From: Deltaproteobacteria bacterium
GTDB taxonomy: Bacteria > Desulfobacterota > Desulfuromonadia > Geobacterales > Pseudopelobacteraceae
Reading direction: 5' to 3'
DNA length: 34,573 nt
Assembly (NCBI GenBank): GCA_021778115.1
Contig: JAJYCS010000020.1
Coordinates: 1 to 34,573 of the forward strand
The notes beneath the pieces are model-generated. The model did not search any database. It worked only from the letters and a program-made list of their open reading frames with translations, and was not told the origin of the DNA. Made by a program: the position numbers and the translations under genes. This document shows positions 1 through 34,573 of this stretch, in pieces (within the stretch, counting starts at the first letter, position 1; each line of letters opens with the position of its first letter).

Positions 1-1845
1 GTACATACCGGTGATGGCGTAGCGGGCCGACGGGGTCCAGGTGGCGGACAGCTTGCCGTTCACCACCTTGTCCGGCTGGTTGGTCAGGTTGGCGGTCCGC
101 TGGTCGTACAGGGAAACGCCGTAGGTGGCGCCGTTGCCCACCGTGGAACCGAGGGTGTTGGTGGTGAAGTTGGTCAGGGCGGCGTTGACGTTCTGGTACG
201 GATTGTCAATCACCTGATAATCGATGGCGGCCCGGGCTGAGACGGTGCTGCCGGGCCGGGTCATGAGACCGGCGCTCACCTTGTGGCTGGTGGTGGTCCC
301 CAGCTGTCCGTCATGGCGGTCAAGCATCTGATACTCGTATCCCAGCCGCAGGGTGGTGCGCAACGCCACCCGATAGACCGCGTCAAGGCCGGCAGTGATG
401 GTATCGCGGGAGAGGGCCGAGTAGCGGGTGGCCAGCAGGGAGTTGGGATCGGGGACAAAGTTGTTGGGGGGCTGGGTCCCGGTTGCGTTGGCGATGGTGC
501 TGAAGGCGATGGTAACATCGTCGTTGCTGATCCGCTCGGAGCGGCCCCGCAGGGTGACGGTCAGGTCCTTGCCGAAGGTGCTGGTCAGCCTGCCGCCGTA
601 GGCGTCGTAGGTGGTATGGAGGGTGACGCCGTTACTGCCGTTGAAGCTGAAGATCCCTGCCTCACCGGTCTTGCCGCTGTCCACGGTGGCCCTGACATAG
701 CTGCCCATCAGGGAGGCGGCCCCGGGCAGGTCCACCTTGGCCTTCACCACGTGGCTTTCCTTCTTCGAGTCAGGGGTCTCGTCGTAGCGCAACAGACCGT
801 CGCGGTAGTCATACAGCAGCCGGTTGTCGAAGAAGGCGTACCCACCGGTGTTGTAGGTCGCCGGCGCCGCAGCGCCCGGTGAGAGGGCCGGGTCGTAGTA
901 GCGGGTCGGGGGGGGTGCATTCTCCCGGAACTGACGGTTGAGATAGGTATAATCAATCGTGAGCAGGCCGAAACGACCGGTGGCCCCGGCGCTGATGTCG
1001 CGGGTGTTCTCGTTGATCACCTTAGACTGACCGGTAACGTGGCAGGAGGTGCACTTGCTCATGCCGATGGACTGCTTCAGGCCGTTGCGGTCCTCATTGC
1101 GGTACCCGAAATGGAAGGTGACGTTGGGCAGCTGCGGGATGGTCAGGTCGCTCTTGCTGCTCCACTCGGTCCGTTTGACCCCGAACACAGCGCTGGGGGT
1201 CAGGTCCTCACCGTAGACCGAGGCCCGACCGATCTGCTGGAACGAATAGGCGGCATTGCCGTATCCCACCAGGGGTGCGGTATTGGTAACATAGGTGGCC
1301 CCGGTGACCTTGTTTTTCACCAGAAAGGCCGGGACAAAGTTAGGGTTCAGGGTATTGGTGGTACTGTTGCTGGTAAAGAGGTTCACCGTCTGCGTCAGAC
1401 CGGCGCTGTTGCTCAGGGTGATAGGGGTGGCGGCGCCGCTGAAGGCAGAGGGCGCCGCAGGGATCGCCGCATCCAGGTACTGCATCCGGTCGTGGTCCAG
1501 CCAGTGGTTGAGCACCGAATAGCTGAAGTCGGTCTTGAAGACCCGCATCAGGTCCAGGGAGGCGCTGTGGTCCTGGTCCCGTGAGTCCAGATAGCGGAAA
1601 TCGCCGTCAAAGACGATTCCCCGCTGGTGTACGGACAGATCCACCTTGCCGTAGGGGTTCACCCCGTTCTTGGTCCGAAGCGATGAATACTCGTTGACCT
1701 TCTTGATATCATCCGTGCTGGTGAGAGCGGCGGCGCCGCTTTCCAGGTTGGCCGAGAACGATTTGTCACCATCGGCCACTGCCGCCAGGGGCACCAGCAG
1801 GATAGAGGCTGCCATGCCGGCCAGCCAGAGTCTGTATCCTTTCAT
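1..1845 (-). CDS. MtrB/PioB-family outer-membrane beta-barrel protein, partial (C-terminus beyond the left edge)
   Basis: I translated this strand from an ATG at 1845, preceded by a strong AGGAGG ribosome site. It stays open for 615 codons to the window edge. The N-terminus is a signal peptide (MKGYRLWLAGMAASILLVPL, cleavage near ADG). The rest is an alternating, Thr/Asn/Tyr-rich pattern typical of large barrels, with many R-Y-L-D and Y-x-Y strand motifs. Family members form the porin sheath through which a periplasmic decaheme cytochrome passes electrons across the outer membrane. The gene starts 31 bases after the decaheme cytochrome gene, so they are probably co-transcribed and functionally paired. 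Oddly, residues 265-269 are CTSCH, a c-type heme attachment motif. The N-terminal CXXC known from Shewanella MtrB is absent. Family assignment rests on context and composition rather than a long recognisable motif. Confidence 0.82.
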   Translation of the reverse strand, partial: MKGYRLWLAGMAASILLVPLAAVADGDKSFSANLESGAAALTSTDDIKKVNEYSSLRTKNGVNPYGKVDLSVHQRGIVFDGDFRYLDSRDQDHSASLDLMRVFKTDFSYSVLNHWLDHDRMQYLDAAIPAAPSAFSGAATPITLSNSAGLTQTVNLFTSNSTTNTLNPNFVPAFLVKNKVTGATYVTNTAPLVGYGNAAYSFQQIGRASVYGEDLTPSAVFGVKRTEWSSKSDLTIPQLPNVTFHFGYRNEDRNGLKQSIGMSKCTSCHVTGQSKVINENTRDISAGATGRFGLLTIDYTYLNRQFRENAPPPTRYYDPALSPGAAAPATYNTGGYAFFDNRLLYDYRDGLLRYDETPDSKKESHVVKAKVDLPGAASLMGSYVRATVDSGKTGEAGIFSFNGSNGVTLHTTYDAYGGRLTSTFGKDLTVTLRGRSERISNDDVTIAFSTIANATGTQPPNNFVPDPNSLLATRYSALSRDTITAGLDAVYRVALRTTLRLGYEYQMLDRHDGQLGTTTSHKVSAGLMTRPGSTVSARAAIDYQVIDNPYQNVNAALTNFTTNTLGSTVGNGATYGVSLYDQRTANLTNQPDKVVNGKLSATWTPSARYAITGMY

Positions 1846-17595: not shown

Positions 17596-17640
17596 ACGCC
17601 CCCCCTTGGCAGTTACCTATCAAGCTTTCACCGTCTTCCG

Positions 17641-19626: not shown

Positions 19627-20924
19627 GCACCTCTCCTTGTGCGGTGTCCGGCTGCCTCAGGCCGGCACCCTTCACCGGCGCCGTTCTCCAGCCGTTTGCG
19701 TCGTACCGCTTTATCCGCGTACATATTACGGTCGGCCTGGTCCAACGCCTGGTCCAGCAGGGACGGGTCGTCACAGGTGGCGCACCCCAGGGAGAGGGCC
19801 ACCGCGCGTCCCCCCTGGGGCGCTGCCATCAGCCGCCGGATCCGCTCCATCACCGAGGCGACCCCAGGGGCATCGACGCCGGGCAGCAGGATGTAGAACT
19901 CATCCCCTCCGATCCTGGCCACGACGTCACTGGCCCGGCAGGCGGCCAGGAGCAGCTGCGCCGCCTGACGCAGCACCGAATCCCCCGCCTGATGACCGTG
20001 CTGGTCGTTCACCAGTTTCAGACCGTCAAGATCGGCCATCAGCACCGAGACCGGCGTGGTCCGCCCCCTGATGAGACGATCCCGTTCCGCCTCGAAGTAG
20101 GCCCGGTTGAAGAGGCCGGTCAGGGGGTCATGGGTGGCGGTGTAGCGCAACAGTTCCTCGTGACGCCGCCGCGGGGTAATATCCCGGACCGTGGTCACCA
20201 CCTGGATCCCGTCATCAACGGGGAGAAACCGGCAGCTGAGCTCGGTGGGGATAATCCGTCCGTCCTTGCAGACCAGGTCCCGTTCCACTAGGCAGCTCTC
20301 ACAGGCCAGCAGGTGCCTGATGCAGGCATCCTCATCGCAGGGGGACCCCCCGGAGCAGAGCTGGGGGAGCCGCATCTGCCGCAGCTCGGCATGGCTGTAG
20401 CCGAACAGTGTGCAGGCCGCATCGTTGGCCTCCAGAATAAGCCCCGGTCTGTTCTCAACGGTCAACGGATAGACGAAGAGGGGGTCGTTGACGCCGGCAA
20501 ACAAGAGCCGGTACCGCGCCTCGCTCCGTTCCAGCTCCTTCCGCGCCCTGAAACGCTCCGCAGCCCGCATCAGGACCTGGTCCAGCCGGGTGACGTCCAA
20601 CGGCTTGAGCAGGTAGCCGTCCACCCCCAGGTTCAGGGTCTCCAGGAGCTGTTCCCGCTCATCCACCACACTGAGGATGATCACCGACAGCTCAGGCCAC
20701 TGCAGACGGGCCTGACGGCAGAGCTCGATCCCCCCCATGCCGGGCATGCAGAGATCGGTCATCAGCAGATCGCACGGTGCCTCCTGCAGCAGCGCCAGGG
20801 CCTGGCGACCATCGGCTGCCAAGCGCAACTCCCCCACCCGCTGGGCCAAGAGCGCGCCGAACCAAGTCCGAGTGGGGGCGTGATCCTCCGCGTAGAGCAC
20901 TGAGAGCTGTTTCAGGCAGTTCAT
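19620..20924 (-). CDS. Response regulator diguanylate cyclase (REC-PAS-GGDEF)
   Basis: The 434-residue protein has a receiver domain (about 5-125; phospho-accepting Asp57, Lys108 in LKP), a PAS domain (about 136-250) and a GGDEF domain (about 262-420) with an intact GGDEF at 339-343. An RASD I-site at 330-333 predicts product inhibition. It should make c-di-GMP when the receiver is phosphorylated, probably by the hybrid kinase encoded just upstream. I chose ATG 20924, which overlaps the kinase stop (ATGA) and has GGAGGGG upstream; ATG 20939 would add five residues. The PAS domain contains a cluster of six cysteines (190, 196, 201, 208, 211, 219), suggesting a metal or redox centre. It overlaps the chemoreceptor gene by seven bases. 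Confidence 0.94.
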
Positions 20925-23900
20925 GTTCGGCCCCTCCATCCCTGCGCCTCCACCTCCAGCCGGAAACGCTCGAAATCCTTCGTAAGCTGCGACAAATGCA
21001 CTGCAACACCATCCCAGTCAGCTTGGCCGGCCGACAGCTCCAGGGCGCGGACAACAGTGAAGAGCTGTACGGCCCCCACGCTGGCAGCCGCCCCCTTGAC
21101 GGCATGGGCAACGCTGTGGGCAACGGCGCCGTCGGTGGATGCCGCTGCCCGCTGCAGGGCCTGCAGCTGGTTGGGCATGTCCTCCACAAAGAGGGAAATG
21201 ACCGTGCCTGCCAACTCCCGGCTCCCCCCCATCCGGCGCAGCAGATCGCCGGCATCAAACAGGGGGCCACCGGATGCCGCTGCACCGACAGCCGGCGCTG
21301 CAGGAGCGGCTGTCGGTCGGGGCAGACCGGTAAGGATCGTCAGCAGTTGCTCACGCCTGAGCGGTTTGGCAAGGTAGTCGTCCATACCGGCCTCCAGGCA
21401 GGCCTCTCGATCGCCGGCCATGGCGTTGGCGGTCATGGCCACCACCGTCACCCGAGGGTTCAGCATCGTCGAGTCGACGGCTCGAATCCGACGGGTGGCC
21501 TCGTAGCCGTCCATCACCGGCATACGGCAGTCCATCAGCACCAGATCGTACGGGACCCGCCGCAGGGCCTCCAGCGCCTCGACACCGTTATTTACCGCAT
21601 CGGCCCGGCATCCCAGGGAGGCGAGGAGTCCCAGGGCCACCGCCCGGTTGGTGGCGTTATCCTCCACCACCAGCACCCTGCAACCGGTGGGGAAGGGATG
21701 ACCGGATTCCGGCTCGGGAGACTCGGCAGCGGGATCATCCAACGGAACAGCCTGAAACGGCACGGTGAACCGGAAGGTGCTGCCGCCCCCTCCGATACTG
21801 TCCACCCCAATGGTCCCCCCCATCAGCTCCACCAGCTGACGGCAGATGCTGAGTCCCAGGCCGGTGCCGCCGAAGCGGCGGGTGGTGGAGCTGTCGGCCT
21901 GGGTGAACGGTTCGAAGATCCGCTGCAGCTGATCAGGCGGTATGCCGATCCCGGTATCGGCCACCTCCCAGGAGACCAGCACCCGGCCCGCCTCCTGGTG
22001 CAACAGCCGGGCCGTTATCCTGACAACCCCTTGCTCGGTGAACTTGACCGCGTTATGCACCAGGTTGATCAGAACCTGACGCAACCGGACCTGATCACCC
22101 CTGACCTGCTCGGGCAAGGTCTCAAACCCTGCCAGATCAAGCCGCAGCCCCTTCCGTTCGATCAATGCCCCCAAGACCGCGCAGCTCTCCACCGTTACCC
22201 GCCGCAGGGGGAACGGGGCTAGCTCCAGCTCCAGCCGCCCCGCCTCGATCCGAGAGAGGTCCAGAACATCGTTCAGCAGGACGAGGAGATTCTCCGCCGA
22301 GCCTTTTAGGTCCTGCAGATACCCCTGTTGTTCAGGGCCCAGGGGGGTGAGCTCCAAGAGTTGCGCCATCCCCAGGACCCCGTTCATCGGGGTACGCAGT
22401 TCATGGCTCATGGTGGCCAGAAAGGCGCTCTTTGCGCGGTTTGCCGCCTCGGCAGCCTGATAGGCCTGTTCCAGTGCATGCTCGTGCTGCCGGCGCTCCG
22501 AGATATCGGTGGCGATATGGATGGTGGCCTGATAGTTCCCCGCCGCATCAAAGAGCGGGGTGGTGCTGACCTGATAGTACTCCGCCAACCGCTCCACCAG
22601 CACCTCCTCCAGATGGCAGCCGCCATCGGCCAGGGTCTGGCGCTGGGGACAGAAGGAAGGTGGCCCATCGGCCTGATGCATGCAGCGGTAGCAGAATTCC
22701 CCGGTGGCCTCTTCGCGGGTCACCCCCAGACGTCGCTGGGCCGCCTGGTTGATCTTCAGGATCCGGTGCTGGGCATCGATGATGAATATCAGCTGCGGCA
22801 TGGCGTCAAAAGTCCGTTCCCACTCAGCGTTGGCCGCCTTGAGGGCCTGGGTGGCCTCACGGGCCGCGGTGATGTCCCGCGCCACGCCAAGCACGCCGAT
22901 CAACTCCCCTTTTGCGCCATACACCGGACATTTGATGGTCCCCACCAGCTCCCGGTGACCGTCGTCGGCAAAGGTAACCCACTCGTCACTGCGGCTGGCC
23001 CCGCCGGCTCGGATCGCCTCCTGGTCGTGCCGACGAAAGGCATCGGCCTGTTCACGGTCAACGAGGTCGTAATCGGTCCTGCCGACGATCTCCTCCTCAG
23101 AATGGCCAAACAGCCGCTCGACGCGGCGGTTGCAGGCCAGATAGACCCCCTGGGGGTCCTTCATCCAGATCAGGTCCGGCACGGTGTTGAAGAGGGTGCG
23201 GAGCTGGCTCCGCTCAAAGGCGATGGTCCGTTCCTGAAGCCGCAGAAACCGGTGGAGCTGGTAGGCGGTGAGGAGGGTGAGCAGCAGCCCCACCGGCAGG
23301 ATGCCCAAAAAGGCCAGGGAGCTGTATCGATCCTGATACTGAGGCGTTGCGGCGATACGGATGGCCCAGTCCCGGCCGGCTAGGCGGAGGGGAAAGTACG
23401 CCTCCGGCAGGGGAAAGAGCCGGGCCTTCAGAAAACAACCCGCAGATGCCTCCGGGCTTCGGCGCCAGGTGGCCAGTAGCGCCTCACCAGTCGGGGCCCC
23501 ACGATCCAGGAAGGCCGTATCCAGGCTCTTGACCCGGGGATACTGCAGAGCGGCGGCCAGCATATCGCCGGCCCGGTAGACCCCCAGGGCAAATCCGATG
23601 GTCTGCCCCTGACGCCGCACCGGCATGAACAGCAGAAAACCGGCCTGGGTCTGCCGCTCCTGCAGCAGTCTGATCGGCGCCGTTGCCTGGGGGCGGCCGG
23701 TACGCCTTGCGGCCTCAAGGGCCGCCAGCCGCACGGGGTCGGAGCCCAGGTCATATCCGACCGCACGCTCATTCCCCACAAGAGGCGCCGCAAAGGCCAC
23801 CGGGTAGTACCGGGGGCGCGCCGCTGCTGGCGCCAGACGCCCGTCCGCCCCACGTTCCGTAATCCCCAGGGAGGAACGGCCGGGATAGAGCCGCTGGGCC

Positions 23901-24265
23901 TCGAAGGAGGGGCGGTCCCCGGCCGTCACCCGTGGCACCCACTCCACCGCCTGCATCCCCTTCCGTTGCAGCAGGGGGCGGACAAAGGCCTGAAACGTTG
24001 CGTAATCGAACCCCGTATCCTCCTCGATGAACCGCTGCAGCGCCGAGAGTTCCTGCAGCTGCGCGGTGAGGTAGCCCGTAACCGATCGGGCCTGCATCGC
24101 CGCATCATAGGCAAAGTCGTCGAGGAACTCCTGCCGCGACTGCCACCAGAGCGATACCGTGAGGATACCGGTGAGGATGAGCCCCAGCGCAGCCACCATC
24201 CGGGCCACCGGATGGAAACGGCGGCCGTTGGGCAACGGGGAGGTCGACGGGGTGGAACGGGTCAT
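20921..24265 (-). CDS. Large hybrid sensor kinase: CHASE-PAS-PAS-HisKA-HATPase-REC-Hpt
   Basis: The 1114-residue protein contains a membrane helix (about 22-42), a periplasmic CHASE domain (about 70-290), a second helix (about 315-336), two PAS domains (about 350-468 and 482-592), HisKA with His621 (SHELRTPMNG), HATPase (N box near 735, DTGIGI 770, GTGLGL 800), a receiver with Asp912, and an Hpt domain with His1054 (HAVKG). It can run a His-Asp-His relay within one chain. The second PAS has a cysteine set C525, C528, C539, C550. I placed the start at ATG 24265, just before the basic N-terminus and helix; the frame is open to 24373 but that part looks non-coding and holds a TATACT -10-like element (24344-24349). 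Likely targets are the regulators encoded on either side. Confidence 0.94.
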   Translation of the reverse strand: MTRSTPSTSPLPNGRRFHPVARMVAALGLILTGILTVSLWWQSRQEFLDDFAYDAAMQARSVTGYLTAQLQELSALQRFIEEDTGFDYATFQAFVRPLLQRKGMQAVEWVPRVTAGDRPSFEAQRLYPGRSSLGITERGADGRLAPAAARPRYYPVAFAAPLVGNERAVGYDLGSDPVRLAALEAARRTGRPQATAPIRLLQERQTQAGFLLFMPVRRQGQTIGFALGVYRAGDMLAAALQYPRVKSLDTAFLDRGAPTGEALLATWRRSPEASAGCFLKARLFPLPEAYFPLRLAGRDWAIRIAATPQYQDRYSSLAFLGILPVGLLLTLLTAYQLHRFLRLQERTIAFERSQLRTLFNTVPDLIWMKDPQGVYLACNRRVERLFGHSEEEIVGRTDYDLVDREQADAFRRHDQEAIRAGGASRSDEWVTFADDGHRELVGTIKCPVYGAKGELIGVLGVARDITAAREATQALKAANAEWERTFDAMPQLIFIIDAQHRILKINQAAQRRLGVTREEATGEFCYRCMHQADGPPSFCPQRQTLADGGCHLEEVLVERLAEYYQVSTTPLFDAAGNYQATIHIATDISERRQHEHALEQAYQAAEAANRAKSAFLATMSHELRTPMNGVLGMAQLLELTPLGPEQQGYLQDLKGSAENLLVLLNDVLDLSRIEAGRLELELAPFPLRRVTVESCAVLGALIERKGLRLDLAGFETLPEQVRGDQVRLRQVLINLVHNAVKFTEQGVVRITARLLHQEAGRVLVSWEVADTGIGIPPDQLQRIFEPFTQADSSTTRRFGGTGLGLSICRQLVELMGGTIGVDSIGGGGSTFRFTVPFQAVPLDDPAAESPEPESGHPFPTGCRVLVVEDNATNRAVALGLLASLGCRADAVNNGVEALEALRRVPYDLVLMDCRMPVMDGYEATRRIRAVDSTMLNPRVTVVAMTANAMAGDREACLEAGMDDYLAKPLRREQLLTILTGLPRPTAAPAAPAVGAAASGGPLFDAGDLLRRMGGSRELAGTVISLFVEDMPNQLQALQRAAASTDGAVAHSVAHAVKGAAASVGAVQLFTVVRALELSAGQADWDGVAVHLSQLTKDFERFRLEVEAQGWRGRT

Positions 24266-24429
24266 CCAACTACCAGGGGGGGACAACAGTTGGCGCTCGA
24301 CATGGGGAGACGACTCCGGGGTGGCAATGAGTACGATACACCCAGTATACCGCACCGCGCCGCAGGCCACCATCGGGTGAACACCCTAGAAGAAACTACG
24401 GTTGTACAACGGGGAATAGGAGAAAAGGG

Positions 24430-25029
24430 TCAGGCAAGCCCCAGTGCCAGGGCGTGACGCACCAGCTCTGCGGTGCTGTGCAGGTCGAGCTTGTTCATCA
24501 GGTTGCAGCGGTGGCTGTCCACGGTCTTGACGCTCACCCCCAAGGTCGCGGCGATGAGCCGGTTGCTCATACCCCGGGCGATATGGCCCAGCACCTCCCG
24601 CTCCCGGTCGGTAAGAGGCTGCCGCTCAGGGGGGCGGGTGACAACACGCTGCTTGCCGGCCCGTTGATCGGACGCCACCTGACGGATCACCGCCACCAGG
24701 TTTTCAAAGGCCTCCCCCTTGCGGAGAAACCCCCGCACCCCGGCGCTTTTGGCCTGCTCACAGACCACCGGATCGTCATGGCCGGTGAGGACGACGGTCG
24801 CCGTCGCCAACCCTTCCCGCTGCAGGCAAGCCGCCAGGGAGATACCGTCAATCCCCGGCATGGAGATATCCAGCAGGGCCACATCGGGCCGATGACTGCG
24901 GATGAGGCGCAGCGCCTCGGCGCCATCGGCACAACCGGCCACCAGTTCAAGATCGGGGCTGGCGGCGATCAGGCCGGCAAGCCCCTGACGGAACATCTGA
25001 TGATCGTCGGCAATCAGGACACGGATCAT
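24430..25029 (-). CDS. NarL/FixJ-type response regulator (REC-LuxR HTH)
   Basis: The 199-residue protein has an N-terminal receiver domain (Asp8-Asp9 acidic pocket, phospho-accepting Asp54 in LLDISMPGIDG, Lys near 105 in FLRKGE) and a C-terminal LuxR-type helix-turn-helix (about 137-199; LTDREREVLGHIARGMSN, then GVSVKTVDSHRCNLMNKL). It should bind DNA when phosphorylated. I start it at ATG 25029 because the receiver consensus (MIRVLIADDH) begins there and GAGG lies five bases upstream; an upstream ATG at 25068 would add thirteen unrelated residues. It lies 164 bases upstream of the large hybrid kinase on the same strand, a likely partner through the kinase's Hpt domain. Confidence 0.94.
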   Translation of the reverse strand: MIRVLIADDHQMFRQGLAGLIAASPDLELVAGCADGAEALRLIRSHRPDVALLDISMPGIDGISLAACLQREGLATATVVLTGHDDPVVCEQAKSAGVRGFLRKGEAFENLVAVIRQVASDQRAGKQRVVTRPPERQPLTDREREVLGHIARGMSNRLIAATLGVSVKTVDSHRCNLMNKLDLHSTAELVRHALALGLA

Positions 25030-25126
25030 GGATGCCTCGCGGGTGGGGAATCCTGCTGCCGGCGCCATCCGGCGCCCGACAGATACAGGGTAGCACGAAA
25101 ACGCTCCGCCGCAACCCCCGACAAAC

Positions 25127-26281: not shown

Positions 26282-26310
26282 TTGACATTTACCCCGTCTT
26301 AGGCTACAGT
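26282..26310 (+). promoter_or_regulatory. Sigma-70 promoter for the cheY-cheX pair
   Basis: A perfect -35 TTGACA (26282-26287) is followed after an ideal 17 bases by TACAGT (26305-26310, 4/6 match). The start site would be near 26317, about 53 bases before the cheY-like ATG. Confidence 0.6.
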
Positions 26311-26369
26311 TTCTCCCGCCGTGCCGTCCGGCACAGACACTGATCGCTACTCTGGGAGGTAAGGTGTCC

Positions 26370-26729
26370 ATGAAGAAGGTCCTCGTCGTCGACGATAGCC
26401 TCTCCGTCGCCCGCCAGCTTGAGAAGATAATCAACGAATCCGGTGATCTCGTCTGCGTCGGCCATGCCAAGAACGGGGCCGAGGCGATCAAGATGAACCA
26501 CAGCGAAGACCCCGATATCATCTGCATGGACATGAACATGCCCGGCATGGACGGCCTGACCGCCCTGCGCAGCCTGATGGTGCTGGACAAGGCCGTCAAG
26601 GTGGTAATGGTCACCTCTCTGGGTGGAGTGGGAGACAAATTTACCGAGGCGATCAAACTGGGGGCAAAAAACGTGATCGCCAAACCGTTTGAGCCGGACA
26701 ACGTCCTGAACATCCTGCGTACCCTGTAG
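26370..26729 (+). CDS. Stand-alone CheY-like response regulator
   Basis: The 119-residue protein is a bare receiver domain. Asp8-Asp9 form the acidic pocket, Asp54 (CMDMNMPGMDG) is the phospho-acceptor, Thr82 is the switch residue and Lys105 (AKP) is conserved. It has no output domain, so it acts by binding partners, such as a flagellar or pilus motor. Start choice: ATG 26370 gives the usual MKKVLVVDD start; GTG 26364 is also possible and sits closer to GGGAGG (26354-26359). The next gene, 44 bases downstream, encodes a CheX-type phosphatase that could dephosphorylate it. The upstream kinase is not adjacent and is unknown. Confidence 0.92.
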   Translation: MKKVLVVDDSLSVARQLEKIINESGDLVCVGHAKNGAEAIKMNHSEDPDIICMDMNMPGMDGLTALRSLMVLDKAVKVVMVTSLGGVGDKFTEAIKLGAKNVIAKPFEPDNVLNILRTL

Positions 26730-26773
26730 CAGGTTACAACTGCTGCTGCAGGAGCATCCGAGGGGATACCGAT

Positions 26774-27640
26774 ATGGCGGTAAAATTTTTTGGACAATTT
26801 CTGATCGAACAGGGGGCCGTCACCAGCGAATCGCTGCTGCACGCCATCGAGCTGCAGGAGCGGACCAACCTGAAGCTGGGAGAAATGGCGGTGGCTATGG
26901 GCTACATCACCGCAGCGGATATCGAACGGGCCCATGGAGCCCAGCTGTCGAAGGATATGAAGCTGGGGGATCTGCTGGTGGAGCTGGGGATACTCTCCGC
27001 TGATCAGCTACAGGAGGTGATCGCCCGCCAGAAGGCCACCCACCTCTACATCGGCGAGGCCCTGGTCAAGGTGGGGGCACTCAGCGCCGAACAGCTGGAA
27101 AACCACCTGGCCGCCTTCAAGGAGGACCAGGCCCGTTACGTGGCCGACCGGATCGAACTGCCGGACTGGCTTGCCAACCGGGCCATCTGGGAGACCGCCG
27201 TCGACCTGACCTACAAGATGATCACCCGGGTGCTGGGGGTGCAGTTTCGACCCGGAAAATGCCGGGAGGTCCAGCAGATTGCCGGTAACGCCATGATCGC
27301 CAGCATGGACTTCAGCGGTGACGCTGCCGCCCGCTATCTGCTGTCGGTCTCCGCCGGGATGCAGAAGACCGTAGCTAGGGCGATCCTCAGGGAAGAGGCG
27401 GTGGATCACGAGCCGATCGAGGTGCTGGAGGACACGGTGATGGAGTTTACCAACATCGTCTGCGGCAATGTGGTGGCAAAGACCTCCCAGTCCGGCATGG
27501 TCCTTGATATCCATCCCCCCATCACCCTGCATCCGCCGCAGACCGGTCTGGCGGTACCCTCCGGCTACCGCGGTCTGCTCTTTCCTATCCACCTGGGTGA
27601 TGACGAGGTGATGGAGCTGGCCCTGTTCATCAAACAGTAG
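26774..27640 (+). CDS. CheX-type phosphatase with N-terminal MshEN-like repeats
   Basis: The 288-residue protein has two parts. Residues 1-120 contain about three copies of a repeat resembling the MshEN/GspE N-terminal motif (LKLGEMAVAMGYI, MKLGDLLVELGIL, LYIGEALVKVGAL, each followed by a helix ending in Q). Residues 135-288 resemble CheX: the helix EDTVMEFTNIVCGN has Glu224-x-x-Asn227, the ExxN catalytic pair of CheC/CheX/FliY phosphatases. It should speed loss of phosphate from CheY-like proteins, and the receiver encoded just upstream is the obvious substrate. MshEN domains can bind c-di-GMP, but the Arg of the known RLG motif is missing here, so ligand binding is doubtful. GAGGGG precedes the ATG. 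A terminator follows. Confidence 0.85.
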   Translation: MAVKFFGQFLIEQGAVTSESLLHAIELQERTNLKLGEMAVAMGYITAADIERAHGAQLSKDMKLGDLLVELGILSADQLQEVIARQKATHLYIGEALVKVGALSAEQLENHLAAFKEDQARYVADRIELPDWLANRAIWETAVDLTYKMITRVLGVQFRPGKCREVQQIAGNAMIASMDFSGDAAARYLLSVSAGMQKTVARAILREEAVDHEPIEVLEDTVMEFTNIVCGNVVAKTSQSGMVLDIHPPITLHPPQTGLAVPSGYRGLLFPIHLGDDEVMELALFIKQ

Positions 27641-27667: not shown

Positions 27668-27689
27668 GGGCGCCCTTCGGCGCCCTTTT
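27668..27689 (+). terminator. Intrinsic terminator after the cheX-like gene
   Basis: GGGCGCC (27668-27674) pairs perfectly with GGCGCCC (27679-27685) around a CTTC loop and is followed by TTTT (27686-27689). The last bases meet the end of the convergent methyltransferase gene. On the minus strand the hairpin also follows that gene, but without a T-run. Confidence 0.82.
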
Positions 27690-28453
27690 CAATTTCCGAT
27701 CAGGAGCGCCCGGACCTCATCGGTGTACTGCTCGCCGTCGCTCCGGACGATCAGGGGCGGCAGCACCCGCAGAGCGGCTGTGGGCCGTCCCTTGACCAGT
27801 TCCAGGAGAAGGACCTTGGCATCGGCCAACGGCGTCCCATGCACCATCCGTAGCTTGACCAGGGAGAGATTTCGGGCAGTTGCCGCCACCAGCAGCTCCA
27901 CCAGACGGTCGGGGTGATAGACCAGACAGATCCTGCCGGCCGGTTTCACCAGATACTTGGCCGCGTCCAGAACATCGGCCAGCCCGGCCGTAGTCTCGTG
28001 GCGGGCCACCCGTTTGGCGGGATCGGGGTTGAGCCGTCCCCTCCCCTGTTTGCGGTACGGCGGGTTGCTGACCACCAGGTCACAGCAGGAGACCGGCAGA
28101 TGCCGTCGGACCTGCAGGAGATCCTCATGCAGGACCCTGATGCGCCCCTCAAGCCCGTTCAACCGCGCATTTTCCCTCGCCAGTTGCGCCGTTGCGCCAT
28201 CCAGTTCCAGGGCGGTCACGGTGGCTTTGCCCGCCATCCGCGCCAATACCAGGGCCATCACACCGCTGCCGGTCCCTAGGTCGGCTATGGCTGACTCCAT
28301 GGCTGCGCCGGCAAAATCGCACAAAAGTAACGGATCGAGGGTAAAACGGTAGCCGTTTTTCGGCTGCAACAGGGTGAGGCCGAACCGTCGCAGCTCATCA
28401 CGGGTAACACCTTCAGGTACCTGGGACAGGGGATCAGGGGAGACCGTCGGCAT
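27689..28453 (-). CDS. TrmN6-like tRNA1(Val) (adenine-37-N6)-methyltransferase
   Basis: The 254-residue protein is a class I S-adenosylmethionine methyltransferase. The SAM-binding motif is DLGTGSGVMALVLA (about 58-71), an acidic residue in VTALELD ends strand 2, and the catalytic NPPY (VVSNPPYRKQGRGR) marks N6-adenine or N5-glutamine methylation. The N-terminal pattern (TLLQPKNGYRFTLDPLLL) and total length fit the YfiC/TrmN6 family, which methylates A37 of tRNA1(Val). Other N-methyltransferase targets remain possible. Its ATG lies inside the last codons of the yfhO-like gene (20-base overlap) and has only a weak ribosome site, so its translation may depend on that gene. It ends at the shared hairpin. 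Confidence 0.85.
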   Translation of the reverse strand: MPTVSPDPLSQVPEGVTRDELRRFGLTLLQPKNGYRFTLDPLLLCDFAGAAMESAIADLGTGSGVMALVLARMAGKATVTALELDGATAQLARENARLNGLEGRIRVLHEDLLQVRRHLPVSCCDLVVSNPPYRKQGRGRLNPDPAKRVARHETTAGLADVLDAAKYLVKPAGRICLVYHPDRLVELLVAATARNLSLVKLRMVHGTPLADAKVLLLELVKGRPTAALRVLPPLIVRSDGEQYTDEVRALLIGN

Positions 28454-30866
28454 TGCGCTTTCTCAGGAACCACTCGCGAAACGCGAACAGGGCAAACAGG
28501 GCGAAGGAGCAGAGGGTAAGCCCTCTGCCGATCTTGAACGGCGCCGGGTCAAAACGGAACTCCACGCGATGGAGACCAGGGGTGAGATAGAGGCCCCGCA
28601 GGATATGATCGGCCGGTATGATGGCCACCGGCCGGCCATCAACGGTGGCCCGCCACCCCTGCTGGTACTTCTCCCCCAGCAGCAGCAGGCTGTTGACGCT
28701 GGTGCGGGTCGTAAGGTCGATCCGCTCCGCCTCAAACCGCTGCAGTTGCACCTCCCCTGAAGCGACGCCCCCCTGGAGCGGGAACGGGGGCGGGGTCTCC
28801 ACCAGGGCCCGCTCACGGGGTCTGAAGGCCGGGTCCTGCAACAGCCGGAGACACTGCGCCGGATTGGGCACCACCGTCACCCGGTCGACCAGCCAGGCCT
28901 TGGGCAGCGCCTGCCGGTTCTCCAACACCACCTCACCCCCCCCGGTGAAGACAGGGCGATAGGCGGCGCCAAAGGCAGCCCCGGCCCGTGCGTACAGGTG
29001 CTGATCAGCCACCAGCCAGCGGACGTTCATAAGGGACGGCAACGCCGACTGCAGGGTCAGGGCATCCAGATACTCCTGCCACCGCCGCTTCTGCACGGCA
29101 TTGGCGGTGAAGAGGACCGGTATCCCGGCCGACGCGTATTGCATCGGATCCCCCCCCCCCAGGAGCAAGACCCGATCCTGCGGCACCCCAGCAGCTGCAA
29201 CGGCCCGTTCCTGGGTCCGAATCCACTCCATGGCCGGGGTCTGGGCGACCACCCCCTGGCGCTCGGGCGCCTTGGTCAGCACCAGAAACTGCCGATCCAC
29301 CCGCCAGAGGTCAGCCACCACGAGGGCCAACAGGAAGAGGCTGCCGATAACGACCAGACCGCGACGCCGCACCATGGCCAGCAGCACCAGGGCATAGGCG
29401 CTGGCAAAGGCCAGGGCGATGCCGGTCTCCCGTTCCAGGTTCCCCCACCGGTCAGCCACCAGCTGCACCCCCTGCTGGTAGCGGGTAGGCCGGCTCAGGA
29501 GCGCCATCAGCCACTCCCTGACCGTGGCGCCGAAGAGCCGCTCGATCCAGAGCAGCAGCACCAGGACCAACGGGAAGGAACAGAGCCAGTAGAGCCAGTA
29601 CTGCAGACGGGGGTCGGCAGGGGTCTCATCGTCCCGTAGGCTGTCCACCCCCCGGGCCGTCAGCACCGCCAGACCGAAGGCGGTGATGAACAGCATCATC
29701 TTGGGGACTCTGAACCGGTTGATCCCCGGGAGATAGTCGTACAGCAGGGGGTACAACGGGGTGTATTTCCCCATTGAAAAAAGCAACCCGCCGGCCACCG
29801 CCACCAGGGCGGCGATGGTGATCCGATCCCGGCGGAACAACAGCGGCAGCGGCAACAGCAGCCAGGGGAGCAGACCGAAGTAAGAGGCGGTCTGGGTGAA
29901 GACCATCCGGCCCCAGTAGTAGACCTGACCCGGCGCCGGCTGGTCGCCGGCCTCCTGCCGGGAAAGCCCGAAGAGCCCCGGAATCACCAGCGAGGCGGTC
30001 TCCTCCGGCGGCAGCGACCACATCATCGCCTCGTCCCGGTCAAGCCCCCCCTTCCCCTGATTGGCGCCGGACTGTCCCCCCCGGTTGGTATTCTGGGACC
30101 AGCTGGCCAGGGGCGCCAGGGAGATGGCGGCGGCGGTGAGGAAAAAGAGCACCATCAGCAGCGACAGGGCCACGGTCCTCCCCTGCGGTCGCCACCCCTC
30201 CCCCGCCACCGCCCCGGCCATAAGCCGCAGGAACACGTAGAGCCCCACCGCCAGACAGGTGTCGTAGGCGATCTGCCAGTGGGTGTTGAAGAACTGGAAG
30301 GCCAGCACCATGCCGGCGCAGAGGTAGTGGAACAGGCGTTCCGAGCGGAACCCCCGCTCCAGAAAGTAGAAGACCCACGGCGCATAGGCGATGGTGGCGA
30401 TCTTCATCACATGGCCGGCGTTGATGAGGGAGACGTTTTCCGTGCAGAGGGCGAACACCACGGCGCCGAACAGGGCGCCCAGACGGGAACAGCCCACCAG
30501 ACGGCAGTAGCAGTAGGTACCCACCCCGCCGGCAAACAGGTGCAGCACCATGAACCAGGCCACGCTGGCCGGGGCAGGGATCAGCCCGAAGATCAGGCGG
30601 TAGGGGTACAGGAACTGCATCGAGGCCATGGCCCCGTCATTGGTGTAGCCGCTGTTGATGTACGGGTTCCAGCCGGCGCTGGAGAGATCGATCCGCAGCA
30701 GGGACCAAAGCGATTTCCCAAAGGCGTTGTACACCCCCCAGTAGAACTCGTTCAGGATATCCGGCGCCCGCACGATCTTGTCGGTGAACAGGATCGGGCT
30801 GAACAGGGCGACCATCAGGGCCAGCAGGCAGAGCACGACCGGCCAGTTACGCGATTTTACCGCCAT
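28434..30866 (-). CDS. YfhO-family polytopic membrane protein (GT-C-like)
   Basis: The 810-residue protein begins with a membrane helix (about 8-28) followed by an extracytoplasmic loop (NEFYWGVYNAFGKS, GWNPYINSGY), then around ten more hydrophobic helices to about residue 550, and a soluble beta-rich C-terminal domain of about 200 residues before a last helix near 785-800. Layout and loop signatures fit YfhO, whose Gram-positive members take part in glycosylating cell-wall polymers with lipid-linked sugars; here a role in polysaccharide or glycoprotein assembly is inferred from the adjoining glycosyltransferases. GAGGTG lies eight bases before the ATG; the start overlaps the GT4 gene by ten bases. 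A run of ten G (29151-29160 on the plus strand as C) encodes part of LLLGGGDP at about residue 570 and could slip. Confidence 0.85.
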   Translation of the reverse strand: MAVKSRNWPVVLCLLALMVALFSPILFTDKIVRAPDILNEFYWGVYNAFGKSLWSLLRIDLSSAGWNPYINSGYTNDGAMASMQFLYPYRLIFGLIPAPASVAWFMVLHLFAGGVGTYCYCRLVGCSRLGALFGAVVFALCTENVSLINAGHVMKIATIAYAPWVFYFLERGFRSERLFHYLCAGMVLAFQFFNTHWQIAYDTCLAVGLYVFLRLMAGAVAGEGWRPQGRTVALSLLMVLFFLTAAAISLAPLASWSQNTNRGGQSGANQGKGGLDRDEAMMWSLPPEETASLVIPGLFGLSRQEAGDQPAPGQVYYWGRMVFTQTASYFGLLPWLLLPLPLLFRRDRITIAALVAVAGGLLFSMGKYTPLYPLLYDYLPGINRFRVPKMMLFITAFGLAVLTARGVDSLRDDETPADPRLQYWLYWLCSFPLVLVLLLWIERLFGATVREWLMALLSRPTRYQQGVQLVADRWGNLERETGIALAFASAYALVLLAMVRRRGLVVIGSLFLLALVVADLWRVDRQFLVLTKAPERQGVVAQTPAMEWIRTQERAVAAAGVPQDRVLLLGGGDPMQYASAGIPVLFTANAVQKRRWQEYLDALTLQSALPSLMNVRWLVADQHLYARAGAAFGAAYRPVFTGGGEVVLENRQALPKAWLVDRVTVVPNPAQCLRLLQDPAFRPRERALVETPPPFPLQGGVASGEVQLQRFEAERIDLTTRTSVNSLLLLGEKYQQGWRATVDGRPVAIIPADHILRGLYLTPGLHRVEFRFDPAPFKIGRGLTLCSFALFALFAFREWFLRKRNADGLP

Positions 30867-32056
30867 CTCCGCAGCACCTCACCGTAGAGCCGCTCAAGCC
30901 TTGTGGCGGCTGATTCCCAACCGAAGTCGGTGACCATGCGCCAGGCTGCGGCCTGCCCCAGACGGCCAGCCAGGTCACGGTCGGTCAAGAGCCGCTCCGC
31001 CGCCACGGCCAGGCCGTCGCCATCCCCCGGTTCCACCAGCAGCCCGCTTTCATGCTGGACCAGATATTCGGCGATCTGCCCCACCCGTTCGGCAACCAGC
31101 GGCAGACCGGCCGCTGCCAGCTCAGCCAGTTTGGCCGGGCATTTGGTCCGGTTTATCAGGGTATCGTCAAACAGGTAGAGGGCGGCATCGGCCGCTGCCA
31201 GACAATCGGGCAATGCATCGGGCTCCTGCCAGCCGGCCAGGATCAGCCGGGCACGGTAGCCGCCCCGGATTGCAGCCTGTGCAAGGGCCTCCTCCTCCCC
31301 CTGTCTCCCCTGCCCCACCACCAGCACCACGAGGGTCGGCAGCCGCCGGCAGAGTTGTTCCAGCACCTGATGGAGCCGTTCCTGGGTGAACTCGAAAAAA
31401 CGGGTATAGACGAGCAGTACCGGCGCATCGCTGGCAATGCCGAACCGTTCCCGTCCCCGCTGCCGTGCGCCACCCTCCCGCCGCACCGGGCCGTTGGGCA
31501 GATACAGGGTCTGCTGCCGTCGTGCCCCCATGCCCCAGGCCAGGGTTTCCAAGGCTCTGGAGGCCACGGTGACACCATCTGCCCAGCGGGTGAGCCACTG
31601 TTCCTGGAGGGCGAACAGCCGTTTTTCCGGCCAACGGTAGGGGAGCAGTTCGTTCATCCCGCCGGTCCCCTCACGGTCGTCGCCATCCACCACCAGCGGC
31701 GGCAGCCGCAGACCGCATCTCCGCAGCACAAGGAGCAGCAGGGCCGCCAACCCGCCATACCCTTTGGGTTTGAACAGATGGATCAGCTCCGGCTGGTGCC
31801 GTAGGGCCTCCCGCAGCATACGCCAGGCGTACAGCGGTGCCGCCGCCATACCGCGTAGCGGTCCGAGGAGGATGTTCCGCACCGGCACCCCTCCCACCAG
31901 TTCCACCAGCCCGGCATCCTCCGGATTGGTGTAGGGGGGCGCCACCACGGTCACCTCGTGGCCTCGGGCCTGCAGCGCCTGGGCCAGGGGAAGCATGCGG
32001 GCCTGCAACGTCCCCTTGGGACGGATGCCGAACGGCGCCCAAAAGACGATCTTCAT
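30857..32056 (-). CDS. Glycosyltransferase family 4 (GT-B fold)
   Basis: The 399-residue product starts with MKIVFWAPFGIRPKGTLQAR and GHEVTVVAPP, typical of the acceptor-side Rossmann domain of GT4 enzymes. The donor-side half (about 200-380) has VLLVYTRFFEF and LILAGWQEP. In the usual EX7E donor-binding motif the first Glu appears replaced by Thr: the matching stretch reads TKCPAKLAE. This KCPxKLAE form recurs in some group 1 enzymes, so activity need not be lost. It probably adds a sugar to a lipid-linked polysaccharide intermediate; donor and acceptor are unknown. It starts one base after the GT2 stop codon, with GGGGCG as ribosome site, and overlaps the yfhO-like gene by ten bases. Confidence 0.9.
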   Translation of the reverse strand: MKIVFWAPFGIRPKGTLQARMLPLAQALQARGHEVTVVAPPYTNPEDAGLVELVGGVPVRNILLGPLRGMAAAPLYAWRMLREALRHQPELIHLFKPKGYGGLAALLLLVLRRCGLRLPPLVVDGDDREGTGGMNELLPYRWPEKRLFALQEQWLTRWADGVTVASRALETLAWGMGARRQQTLYLPNGPVRREGGARQRGRERFGIASDAPVLLVYTRFFEFTQERLHQVLEQLCRRLPTLVVLVVGQGRQGEEEALAQAAIRGGYRARLILAGWQEPDALPDCLAAADAALYLFDDTLINRTKCPAKLAELAAAGLPLVAERVGQIAEYLVQHESGLLVEPGDGDGLAVAAERLLTDRDLAGRLGQAAAWRMVTDFGWESAATRLERLYGEVLRRWR

Positions 32057-32057
32057 C

Positions 32058-32840
32058 CTAACGCCCCACCCCCTTTTTGATATGACGATAGACGCCGCTT
32101 CCGGCCAACCGGTAATACAGCGGCAGCACCGAGGCGAGCCGGGCCGCCCAGCTGCCGAAAAAACGCCCGTGCCTGTGTATCAGTCCCCGATGCAGCTCCA
32201 GCTTGAGTCGCCAATCCATGCCGGCAGCCATGGAGACGGGCCGCTTACGGTAATAAAAGCCGGTAAACGGCAGGCAGCGCACCGTCCGCCCCAGTTCCAG
32301 AAGCGACAGCCAGAAATCCCAATCCTCCCAGCCGCGCCGCAGGGTTGCATCATAGCCGCCCGTTTGTTCCCAGTCTATCCTGCGATAGACCGCCGAGCAA
32401 AAGATCACGTTCCCCAGCGCCATCCGCCACCGGCTGAAGCGGGGCAGTTGCCAGGGACCGGCCTCGGCCCCGAACTTCTCCGCATGACAGTAGACGATCC
32501 CTGTGGCGCTGTCGGCCTCCAACACCGCCACTGCCCGGCGTAGGTACTGGGGACCGATCCGGTCGTCGGCGTCCAGCGGCAGGATGTAGCGTCCCTGCGC
32601 CTCGCTGATGCCGCTGTTGCGCGCGGCGGCCAGCCCGCCGTTTTCCCGCCGTAGCAGCCTGGTGTGGGGATACCGGAGCTGTTCCAAAAGACGCACCGTT
32701 TCCGGATCGGTGGAGCCGTCGTCCACCACGATGATCTCGAGGTTGTCATGATCGGAGGCCAGCGCCGAGCCGATGGAGGCTGCCAGAAACGGCCCCTGAT
32801 TGTAGCAGGGGATGATCACGGAGACCAGCGGCATGCTCAT
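32058..32840 (-). CDS. Glycosyltransferase family 2 (GT-A fold)
   Basis: The 260-residue protein is a classic GT2: VSVIIPCYNQGPFL at the N-terminus, IIVVDDGSTD near residue 40, a DXD-type metal motif in LPLDADD (90-93) and the WEDWDFWLSL segment near 165 that carries the catalytic base region. It transfers one sugar from a nucleotide-sugar donor. The C-terminus has a short hydrophobic/basic stretch (ASVLPLYYRLAGSGVYRHIKK) that may touch the membrane. I chose ATG 32840, which overlaps the upstream stop (ATGA) and follows AGGGG; the frame runs ten codons further but without a better start. Confidence 0.94.
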   Translation of the reverse strand: MSMPLVSVIIPCYNQGPFLAASIGSALASDHDNLEIIVVDDGSTDPETVRLLEQLRYPHTRLLRRENGGLAAARNSGISEAQGRYILPLDADDRIGPQYLRRAVAVLEADSATGIVYCHAEKFGAEAGPWQLPRFSRWRMALGNVIFCSAVYRRIDWEQTGGYDATLRRGWEDWDFWLSLLELGRTVRCLPFTGFYYRKRPVSMAAGMDWRLKLELHRGLIHRHGRFFGSWAARLASVLPLYYRLAGSGVYRHIKKGVGR

Positions 32841-33982
32841 CCCCTGATCACCTGCCGGTACTGGGCACAAAACCGCTCACTGCCGAAATGTTCCGTCGCA
32901 TACTGAAACGCTACGCTTGAAAGCCGCAACAATAGGGATCGATCCTGTGTCAGGATTCTCACCGCCTGGAGCAGCGCCTCCACGACGGCGGCGTCATCCG
33001 CTGCCGGCAGCAGCCAGCCGTTCTCCAGATGCCGGATATGCCCCGGCACCCCACCCACCGCCGTGGCGATAGGTACACAGCCCTGGGCCATACCCTCCAT
33101 GAGCGTCAGCGGAAACCCCTCCCGGCTAGAGGTAATCAGCACCAGGTCGGCCTGACGGTAGCATTCCGCAAGCTGCCCATCATCGACAACCAGACCGGTC
33201 AGCCGACAGTACGGAACGTCACCCGGCTCAAGCCAGGCAGCGACATCCCCCACCAGGGTGAAACCGACGTCCAGGCCCGCCTCTGCACAACGCCGGGCCG
33301 CCCGCCCGATGAGATGAAGCCGCTTCTCCTCGCTCCCCCGGCCGACAAACAGTACCTGCAGCGTACCATCAGCCGTTTTGTGCGGCCGGACAGCCGGCAC
33401 CGCCACCCGGTTCGGGATAACCCGTATCCGGCCGTCCAACCGGCGGTCCACCCCTTCGGCACGGTAGAATGCCAGGAGTTCGTCCTGTACCCCCTCGGCA
33501 ATCACCACCCGCTCGGCCAAAAGGTCCAGTACCGGCAGGGCGAAACCTTCCGCCCCTCCCCCCATACCGTGCAGCAGGTCGGTGGCCCGGACATGGGGCG
33601 GCAGGTGGGGCAGCAACAGATAGTAGAAAAGGGAGTTGCAGCCGAAGACCCGGGCCGCGGGGTGCCTGCCGATCAGACCTGCCAAAATACCGACGCTTAT
33701 AGGATAGCTGTACTTGAGCAGCCGGCCGCAGTCAAAACAACGGGCAGCGCCTGTAAACTGTTTCCAAAATGTCCGGTTGCACGACCTTTTGGTGAAGAAG
33801 ACCCAGGGCTGTTCATCTGTAAAACAGTTTACAATGTCGGCATGGACCTTTTCAGCACCGCCGGTGTGATAGAAGGGGAAGAAAAAGAACAGACCAGACG
33901 GGTTATGGAACGGCAGCAGCCGGCCGATGAGGCGGCCACAAGCGACAACGGCGTAGAGTACCAACCTGCGCAACCGGTTCAT
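32837..33982 (-). CDS. Glycosyltransferase family 4 with N-terminal hydrophobic segment
   Basis: The 381-residue product has a hydrophobic N-terminus (LVLYAVVACGRLIGRLL, then LFFFFPFYHTGGAEKVHADI). The GGAE motif is typical of GT4 acceptor domains. The donor domain (about 190-360) shows LQVLFVGRGSEEKRLHLIG and the EX7E motif in SSREGFPLTLMEGMAQG, both glutamates present. It is a retaining glycosyltransferase by family; sugar and acceptor unknown. I chose ATG 33982 because it overlaps the stop of the preceding gene (ATGA) and AGGGG lies just upstream. It ends in an ATGA overlap with the GT2 gene. Confidence 0.92.
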   Translation of the reverse strand: MNRLRRLVLYAVVACGRLIGRLLPFHNPSGLFFFFPFYHTGGAEKVHADIVNCFTDEQPWVFFTKRSCNRTFWKQFTGAARCFDCGRLLKYSYPISVGILAGLIGRHPAARVFGCNSLFYYLLLPHLPPHVRATDLLHGMGGGAEGFALPVLDLLAERVVIAEGVQDELLAFYRAEGVDRRLDGRIRVIPNRVAVPAVRPHKTADGTLQVLFVGRGSEEKRLHLIGRAARRCAEAGLDVGFTLVGDVAAWLEPGDVPYCRLTGLVVDDGQLAECYRQADLVLITSSREGFPLTLMEGMAQGCVPIATAVGGVPGHIRHLENGWLLPAADDAAVVEALLQAVRILTQDRSLLLRLSSVAFQYATEHFGSERFCAQYRQVIRG

Positions 33983-34573
33983 AACGGTTCCCCTAGGCAC
34001 TGTTCCAGCAAGGCGACGGTCTCGCGACACATACGGTCACGGCCGAACAGATTTTCCGCGCGTCTGCGCATGACCTCCCCCTGAGCACGACGCAGGGCCT
34101 GATCCCCCAGCAGCCGTTCCAGCTGGTCGGCCAGCAACGCGGGCTGACCGGGTGGCGCGAGAAACGCGCTGCCCTCATCCCCCACCGCCTCATGCATGCC
34201 GGGGATAGCGCTGCCGACCACCGGCAGACCGCTCGCCATCGCCTCCAATACAGCGTTGGGAATCCCTTCGCTGCGTGAGGAGTGGACACACAGATCGGCG
34301 GCGGCCAGCAGACCGGAGACGTCCGCCACCGTCCCCAGGAAGCGCACCCGGTGTTCAATCCCCAGCTGCGCGGCCTGGCGGCGTAACGGATCCGCCTGAT
34401 CGTCACATCGTCCGGCCAACGCCAGAAGCGGTGGTTGAGCGGGATGAGCACGGGCCAGCAGGTGTTGCCAGGCCTGCAACAAGGTGGCATGATCCTTGTA
34501 CCTGCTCAAGTTTGCCACCATGACGGCGACTACGGTGTCATCAGCGACCCCCAGCCGTTGTCGCCAGGTCCGG
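33979..34573 (-). CDS. Glycosyltransferase family 4, partial (N-terminus beyond the right edge)
   Basis: The frame is open to the right edge; an internal ATG at 34521 is not the true start, because the residues before it (RQRLGVADDTVVAVMVANLS) belong to the typical GT4 donor domain. About 197 residues are visible: VANLSRYKDHATLLQAW, VRFLGTVADVSGLLAAADL, and the EX7E motif in SEGIPNAVLEAMASGLPVVG. The enzyme is a retaining GT-B glycosyltransferase. It overlaps the next GT4 gene by four bases and is the first visible gene of this polysaccharide operon; more genes probably lie to the right. Confidence 0.92.
   Translation of the reverse strand, partial: RTWRQRLGVADDTVVAVMVANLSRYKDHATLLQAWQHLLARAHPAQPPLLALAGRCDDQADPLRRQAAQLGIEHRVRFLGTVADVSGLLAAADLCVHSSRSEGIPNAVLEAMASGLPVVGSAIPGMHEAVGDEGSAFLAPPGQPALLADQLERLLGDQALRRAQGEVMRRRAENLFGRDRMCRETVALLEQCLGEPL

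Follow-up and report, generated by a model that had tools for sequence, protein, structure and literature searches.

A CheY receiver paired with a CheX phosphatase carrying four MshEN motifs, a candidate for gating by c-di-GMP

C-di-GMP is familiar chiefly as a messenger that controls flagella and pili by way of effectors located at the motor or the secretion ATPase. The locus described here, in which a stand-alone receiver gene is followed by a gene for a CheX-type protein with an N-terminal MshEN domain, raises the question of whether the messenger may also set the lifetime of phosphorylated CheY (CheY-P). It lies in a window of 34,573 nucleotides (the whole stretch of DNA that was analysed) from a Deltaproteobacteria bacterium whose genome comprises 2.29 Mb in 107 contigs.

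The receiver and the CheX phosphatase domain

The original prediction of a CheY and CheX pair was borne out by two co-directional ORFs, matching PF00072 and PF13690 and separated by a gap of 44 bases. The features of the window are as follows; row counts refer to the less biased 24-row alignment described in the next section.

14965-25068, strand -: signalling gene run (CHASE kinase, NIT-MCP, REC-PAS-GGDEF, CHASE hybrid kinase with Hpt, LuxR-type regulator)
26282..26310, strand +: sigma-70-like promoter match 5' of the pair, TTGACA-17-TACAGT (consensus scan, 10/12)
26370..26729, strand +: CheY-type stand-alone receiver gene (PF00072; 119 aa from ATG)
26774..27640, strand +: MshEN(x4)-CheX gene (288 aa; profile matches and AlphaFold model)
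26786..26857, strand +: MshEN motif 1, aa 5-28 (FFGQ...Q28), outer; F5, F6, G7, Q8 and Q28 in 24/24 rows
26873..26944, strand +: MshEN motif 2, aa 34-57 (KLGE...H54..Q57), inner; G36 and Q57 in 24/24
26960..27031, strand +: MshEN motif 3, aa 63-86 (KLGD...Q86), inner; G65 and Q86 in 24/24
27047..27118, strand +: MshEN motif 4, aa 92-115 (YIGE...F115), outer; G94 and L112 in 24/24
27170..27637, strand +: CheX phosphatase domain, aa 133-288 (PF13690; predicted fold)
27443-27445, strand +: E224 codon, aligned with the Glu of 3hzh
27452-27454, strand +: N227 codon, aligned with the Asn of 3hzh
27668..27685, strand +: terminator-like hairpin, 7 G-C pairs and a T-run, 3' of the pair

An alternative receiver start, GTG at 26364, would give 121 aa. 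The promoter match was not significant (1 in the region vs. 0.6 in shuffles, sd 0.9), and hairpins of this kind numbered 3 in the region (vs. 1.0 in shuffles, sd 1.2), which is no evidence of function. The genes adjoining the pair encode a SurA-like isomerase (divergent) and a methyltransferase (convergent). Positions 28434-34030 of the window, strand -, hold a gene for a YfhO-like membrane protein and then glycosyltransferases, probably a surface polysaccharide cluster.

The receiver scored 88.3 bits against PF00072 in the profile search (cut-off 30.2) and carries D8, D9, D54, T82 and K105, which we take to be the active-site residues. The three aspartates were kept in 78/79 aligned rows and T82 and K105 in 79/79. 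Both the sequence model and the D, D, D, T/S, K set thus place the protein among the CheY-type receivers. At one locus (L016) the CheY frame is apparently broken, by a sequencing error or in a pseudogene.

The second protein matched PF13690 over residues 175-273 (50.4 bits, cut-off 27), with a CheC match nested within it (24.7 bits, cut-off 22). In the whole-protein AlphaFold2 model, built from 78 sequences (pLDDT 87.3, pTM 0.60), residues 133-287 superimposed on T. maritima CheX (1squ_A) with a Z of 19.9 and an rmsd of 2.2 over 151 residues. The catalytic ExxN pair anticipated by the original prediction, Glu224 and Asn227, lined up with its Glu and Asn counterparts in Borrelia CheX (3hzh, solved as a complex with CheY). 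It was intact in 79/79 relatives' rows having these positions and in 23/23 rows of the less biased 24-row set. The curated cut-off, the Glu and Asn of ExxN and the predicted fold all assign the domain to CheX. It resembles CheX of T. maritima (1squ/1xko) and B. burgdorferi (3hzh) in fold (residues 133-288, Z 19.0-19.9), in the ExxN pair and in having a receiver partner. The chains in those structures consist of one domain each, about 150-170 residues long, whereas here a 120-residue sensor-type domain precedes CheX. Judged from its sequence, this domain is likely to dephosphorylate CheY-P. At two loci (L017 and L086) one in-frame TAG interrupts the MshEN-CheX gene, which may be a sequencing error or mark a pseudogene.

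The four-motif MshEN domain and its probable ligand

The N-terminus matched NCBIfam NF053729 (cyclic di-GMP-binding, MshE-related) in two stretches with 99.5 bits (cut-off 38), the better one covering residues 6-57, while Pfam gave no match over cut-off at the N-terminus of the 288-aa protein. Four 24-residue motifs were recognised (aa 5-28, 34-57, 63-86 and 92-115), whose starts are exactly 29 residues apart. The 24-residue motif was taken from Wang et al. 2016 (PMC5013675), where the two motifs of MshE have the same 29-residue spacing. The three MshEN-like repeats proposed earlier were therefore of the right type but not of the right number, which is four. Against the strict consensus RLGxx(LVI)(LVI)xxG(LVI)(LVI)xxxxLxxxLxxQ, motifs 1-4 matched at 7, 6, 9 and 7 of 11 positions. 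The summed score was 29/44. Shuffling residues 1-118 2000 times and scoring every shuffle at 7 offsets with an unchanged period gave 15 at best. Among motifs 1-4, no pair had the full strict consensus in both of its motifs; a passage in Wang et al. states that perfect conservation of the consensus may not be needed for binding (PMC5013675). The first motif position is F, K, K and Y in motifs 1-4, and motif 4 has Phe (F115) in place of the closing Gln.

Two independent AlphaFold runs both predicted an MshEN-like fold for residues 1-120, one of the outcomes on which the original prediction had staked itself. The separate model of residues 1-125, built from 57 sequences (56 of the 80 loci and the window), had a pLDDT of 92.7 and a pTM of 0.76. 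C-di-GMP-bound MshE (5htl_B) matched residues 32-89 of the whole-protein model (Z 10.9, rmsd 1.5, 58 residues, 36% identity) and the same range of the residues 1-125 model (Z 11.0, rmsd 1.5, 58 residues). MshE (5htl) and T. thermophilus PilF GSPII-B (8pdk) fitted the latter with rmsd 1.5-1.7 over 57-58 residues. Its top 10 structural matches were all MshEN, GSPII or PilB domains, with unrelated rows at Z <=6.7, and the top 12 Foldseek rows were likewise all MshEN/GSPII/PilB-type domains. Helical bundles can reach middling Z by arrangement alone, and a Z of ~11 is below the ~13 that the comparison tool calls safe for such folds. Given these values and the weak Foldseek E-values (0.028 for the residues 1-125 model and 0.011 for the MshEN part of the whole-protein model), the structural match relies on support from the sequence match. 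The NF053729 match over cut-off and the predicted MshEN_N four-helix fold together place the domain in the MshEN/GSPII family.

We considered which motifs pair. For tandem MshEN units, pairing of 1 with 2 and of 3 with 4 would be expected, and in the genome search NF053729 tiled at motifs 1+2 and 3+4. This pairing was rejected, as both models place MshE at 32-89 instead; the MshE-like unit is thus predicted to consist of motifs 2 and 3, with motifs 1 and 4 outside it. Covariation, from 93 distinct rows (effective number 60, kinship left in), points the same way within limits. The ten strongest couplings averaged 0.317 for motifs 2-3 vs. 0.128-0.167 for the other blocks. The L35-L79 coupling, equivalent to the MshE Leu10-Leu54 contact, was at the 99.9th percentile, while the other three expected 2-3 contacts reached only the 41st, 75th and 82nd. 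The eight contacts expected for 1+2 and 3+4 fell at the 17th-43rd percentile, several of them at invariant and hence uninformative positions, and one 2-4 pair (I50-I93) was at the 93rd. Pairing of motifs 1 and 4 with each other is suggestive only: two weak rows matched CARD folds spanning 5..123 (Z 3.3), and the block-mean coupling was 0.0026 each for 1-4 and 2-3. It is unlikely, we judge, that the domain is fully nested, with one dinucleotide site built from the inner motifs 2+3 and a second, arginine-free and mostly hydrophobic one formed where the outer motifs 1+4 close over. If it were, two affinities would allow c-di-GMP to be read over two ranges, or two dinucleotides to be read, and CheY-P lifetime would change in steps. 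A chemotaxis off-enzyme would then be gated directly by a second messenger.

The domain is like V. cholerae MshE (5htl) and PilF GSPII-B (8pdk) in its paired 24-residue motifs 29 apart, its four-helix fold and its Gly/Gln contacts. Unlike these, it has four motifs in a row, and CheX follows them so directly that the C-terminal alpha/beta subdomain of MshEN would not fit in between. It also differs in the predicted 2+3 pair, in position 1 (F, K, K, Y), and in H54 for Leu and F115 for Gln.

Conservation of the contact positions was read from a less biased set of 24 rows, comprising the window, 20 of the 72 order genomes and 3 of the 11 phylum loci. This set was gathered without peptide seeds, more divergent members were picked, and the most distant relative (L137) is included. 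Of its 23 places, at least 11 come from records that the seeded contig scan had found as well, and one row (L109, the same gene as L086) ends at the TAG. The contact glycines of all four motifs (G7, G36, G65, G94) and Q28, Q57 and Q86 were kept in 24/24 rows. H54 was found in 16/24 (Asn in 8), F115 in 23/24 (Tyr in 1), K34 in 13/24 (Ser in 8), K63 in 10/24 (Arg in 10) and Y92 in 22/24 (Arg in 2). The contig scan had used peptide seeds including MAVKFFGQ and FKEDQARY, and this selection accounts in part for the invariant residues 1-8 and 115 of the larger sets. Over residues 1-117, mean entropy was 0.45 at ligand-contact positions vs. 1.06 in the core and 1.59 elsewhere; 0/20000 random position sets were as low as the ligand-contact set, in a 78-row set that is partly seed-biased and leaves out L017, L075 and L086. 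(In the 80-locus alignment, L086 was dropped for its TAG-broken frame, and the row of L017 stops at its TAG.) The pocket, though conserved, is non-canonical.

In the register of the models, L35, H54, L64 and L79 correspond to MshE Leu10, Leu29, Leu39 and Leu54; if motifs 1 and 2 were paired, H54 would align with MshE Leu58. The original prediction held that the lost RLG arginine leaves binding open. This doubt is largely answered by PilF GSPII-B, which has Lys and Leu in place of the arginines and still binds c-di-GMP at 6 nM (Neissner et al. 2024, PMC11731258). The missing arginine is therefore no argument against binding. Neissner et al. widened consensus position 1 to R/K/L; in the parts of that work considered here, Phe or Tyr at this position, and likewise His at the Leu29 place, lie outside its coverage. 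In XpsE, an MshEN domain that lost binding, the listed changes include Leu29, Leu58 and Gln61 (PMC5013675). By comparison with XpsE, H54 at the Leu29 place and F115 at the Gln place count against the c-di-GMP reading, as does Ser at the first position of motif 2 in 8/24 rows.

The XpsE precedent also bears on another explanation, that the MshEN part binds no nucleotide and instead serves as a docking or oligomerising module, much as the N-terminal domain of PilB docks PilZ, and places the phosphatase near a partner, for example a chemosensory array. The conserved departures from consensus (H54, Y92, F115) would fit such a role, and the complex of the PilB N-terminal domain with PilZ was matched too (7lko_A, Z 8.2, rmsd 2.3 over 56). 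We regard this as rather doubtful, given that a docking surface has no obvious need for the contact residues that are kept throughout the 24 rows, namely the Gly of every motif and the Gln of motifs 1-3.

It is distinctly unlikely that the ligand is another cyclic dinucleotide or nucleotide, for example cGAMP, which Geobacter makes; F5/Y92 and H54 would then have re-tuned the pocket, with the mechanism otherwise the same. The base-contacting departures are indeed conserved (F5 and F6 in 24/24 rows, Y92 in 22/24, H54 in 16/24 with Asn in 8/24), and MshE itself, according to Wang et al., binds cGAMP weakly (KD 3.3e-4 M; PMC5013675). The same source describes the base as being read in MshE by the backbone amides of Gly and the next residue, and the Gly concerned are all kept, which speaks against a change of ligand. 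We judge c-di-GMP somewhat more probable as the ligand than not.

Conservation of the pair and its genomic setting

The contig scan found 96 relatives, of which 80 were kept (47-80% identity). They are mostly labelled Geobacter, Geobacteraceae, Desulfuromonad- or Deltaproteobacteria, and two are labelled Nitrospirae. The CheY gene was directly upstream in 77/79 loci and also in L086, which had been set aside for its broken frame. As L014 starts 173 bases upstream of the gene, this amounts to 78/79 loci where the position is visible. The same held for 23/23 places of the less biased set, the most distant relative among them. This survey confirmed the adjacency of CheY as conserved. Locus L066 has no receiver next to the gene, with 10 kb of upstream sequence (L066:1-10864). 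In L077, which comes from that isolate too, the CheY-CheX pair is present.

The claim that no kinase or receptor gene is adjacent held for the immediate neighbours; it did not hold farther out, where the signalling genes listed above lie 1.3-11.4 kb upstream of the CheY gene on the other strand. The REC-PAS-GGDEF protein among them has an intact GGDEF motif. In 54 relatives with >9 kb upstream, matches of >250 bits were found for the NIT-MCP in 5, for the CHASE kinases in 2 and 2 (the farther one being largely beyond the relatives' flanks, so that its count is no fair test), and for the REC-PAS-GGDEF protein and the LuxR-type regulator in 0. We therefore rejected a link between the pair and the kinases, the MCP or the diguanylate cyclase nearby, since over the length of the flanks most of the neighbourhood is not conserved. 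A link to the SurA-like gene, which adjoins the pair in 44/79 loci, was also set aside as probably only synteny; the methyltransferase adjoins it in 38/79, and some other loci are cut by contig ends.

The genome contains five CheA, one FliM and three CheX places over cut-off, as well as 25 GGDEF places, the last indicating that c-di-GMP synthesis is present. A fourth, CheC-like protein passes the CheX cut-off when scanned whole. The CheX gene on contig C50 has a receiver directly upstream, and that on C27 has none. The former is a second CheY-CheX pair (L139:4929-5809) with overlapping genes and a CheX of 171 aa, leaving no room for a four-motif domain. These counts make cross-talk possible, and the pair lies inside no che cluster; the adjacent CheY might thus be a regulator or a phosphate sink, with the phosphatase acting mainly on receivers encoded elsewhere. 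The adjacency in 78/79 loci and 23/23 places and the conserved receiver active site, by contrast, are what is expected of a cognate pair, and we hold the elsewhere-encoded substrate to be decidedly improbable.

Nine MshEN matches over cut-off were found in the genome, in six open frames. One of them is in a CheA (L138:8333-10435, contig C87), in which an MshEN unit (residues 246-293; NF053729 43.3 bits, cut-off 38) lies between the Hpt and dimerisation domains. This protein and the present one both have an MshEN unit in a chemotaxis protein, there a kinase and here a phosphatase. The MshEN-CheA form was found in 4/127 genomes of the order (E <= 1e-20), and it was rejected as a fixed partner of the pair.

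The MshEN-CheX protein was present in 72/127 genomes of the order, its own included (E <= 1e-20), and in 11/394 genomes drawn across the phylum (E <= 1e-30), of which eight belong to its own order, two to other parts of the class and one lies outside the class. FliM was found in 105/127 order genomes. The protein occurred in 68/105 genomes with FliM vs. 4/22 without (Fisher p 8.5e-5), with counts from genome lists in which two unlisted FliM-negative genomes were taken as lacking the protein; within its own family it occurred in 51/58 vs. 4/8 (p 0.02), and both tests treat related genomes as independent. In one genus (g19) only 4/19 flagellated genomes had it. The distribution leans towards flagellar signalling. 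In a five-genome Desulfuromonas comparison, cheX (CheX type unspecified) is listed only for the two flagellated strains, as far as that source was covered (PMC8235581).

The original prediction tied the CheY-P lifetime to a second messenger or to the pilus machinery. The messenger half gained support, the best fold matches being c-di-GMP-bound MshE and PilF GSPII-B in a genome with 25 GGDEF places. The pilus half gained none: no pilus family was found among the 20 other ORFs scanned, which are all but a few of those in the window, and having pili does not explain the distribution, because pilT is in 127/127 order genomes vs. 72/127 for the protein. For the same reason, pilT has no power to discriminate.

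A sentence in Wang et al. 2016 (PMC5013675) lists CheA and CheX among the domains with which MshEN occurs. The sections considered here give no species, motif number, CheY pairing or structure for their CheX example, which may belong to the present family. In the open-licence PMC literature, neither the conserved CheY-MshEN-CheX pair nor the four-motif arrangement was found described. In three Geobacter genomes surveyed in 2008, cheX and cheC are reported to be present and cheZ absent, according to the part of that survey concerned (PMC2577667).

A proposed mechanism

We propose, at about even confidence, that the pair is a CheY with a dedicated CheY-P phosphatase gated by c-di-GMP and serving an unlinked kinase. 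In this scheme, which draws on sequence and predicted structure, the kinase, which is probably among the five CheA proteins of the genome, would phosphorylate CheY, and the CheX domain would reach with E224 and N227 into the active site of CheY and remove the phosphate. The four-motif MshEN domain would bind c-di-GMP, with motifs 2 and 3 as the MshE-like site and the flanking motifs 1 and 4 perhaps forming a second one, and binding would turn CheX activity up or down. The cellular c-di-GMP level would thereby set the CheY-P lifetime. We infer three of these elements: the adjacent CheY as substrate, c-di-GMP as ligand and the change of activity on binding. Gating by c-di-GMP follows from the architecture only, and for its direction we guess at activation, on the model of MshE-type proteins.

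If the proposal is true, c-di-GMP would be able to intervene in the chemotaxis signal itself, through the CheY-P phosphatase that it gates, and flagellated relatives of Geobacter would gain a regulated off-switch.
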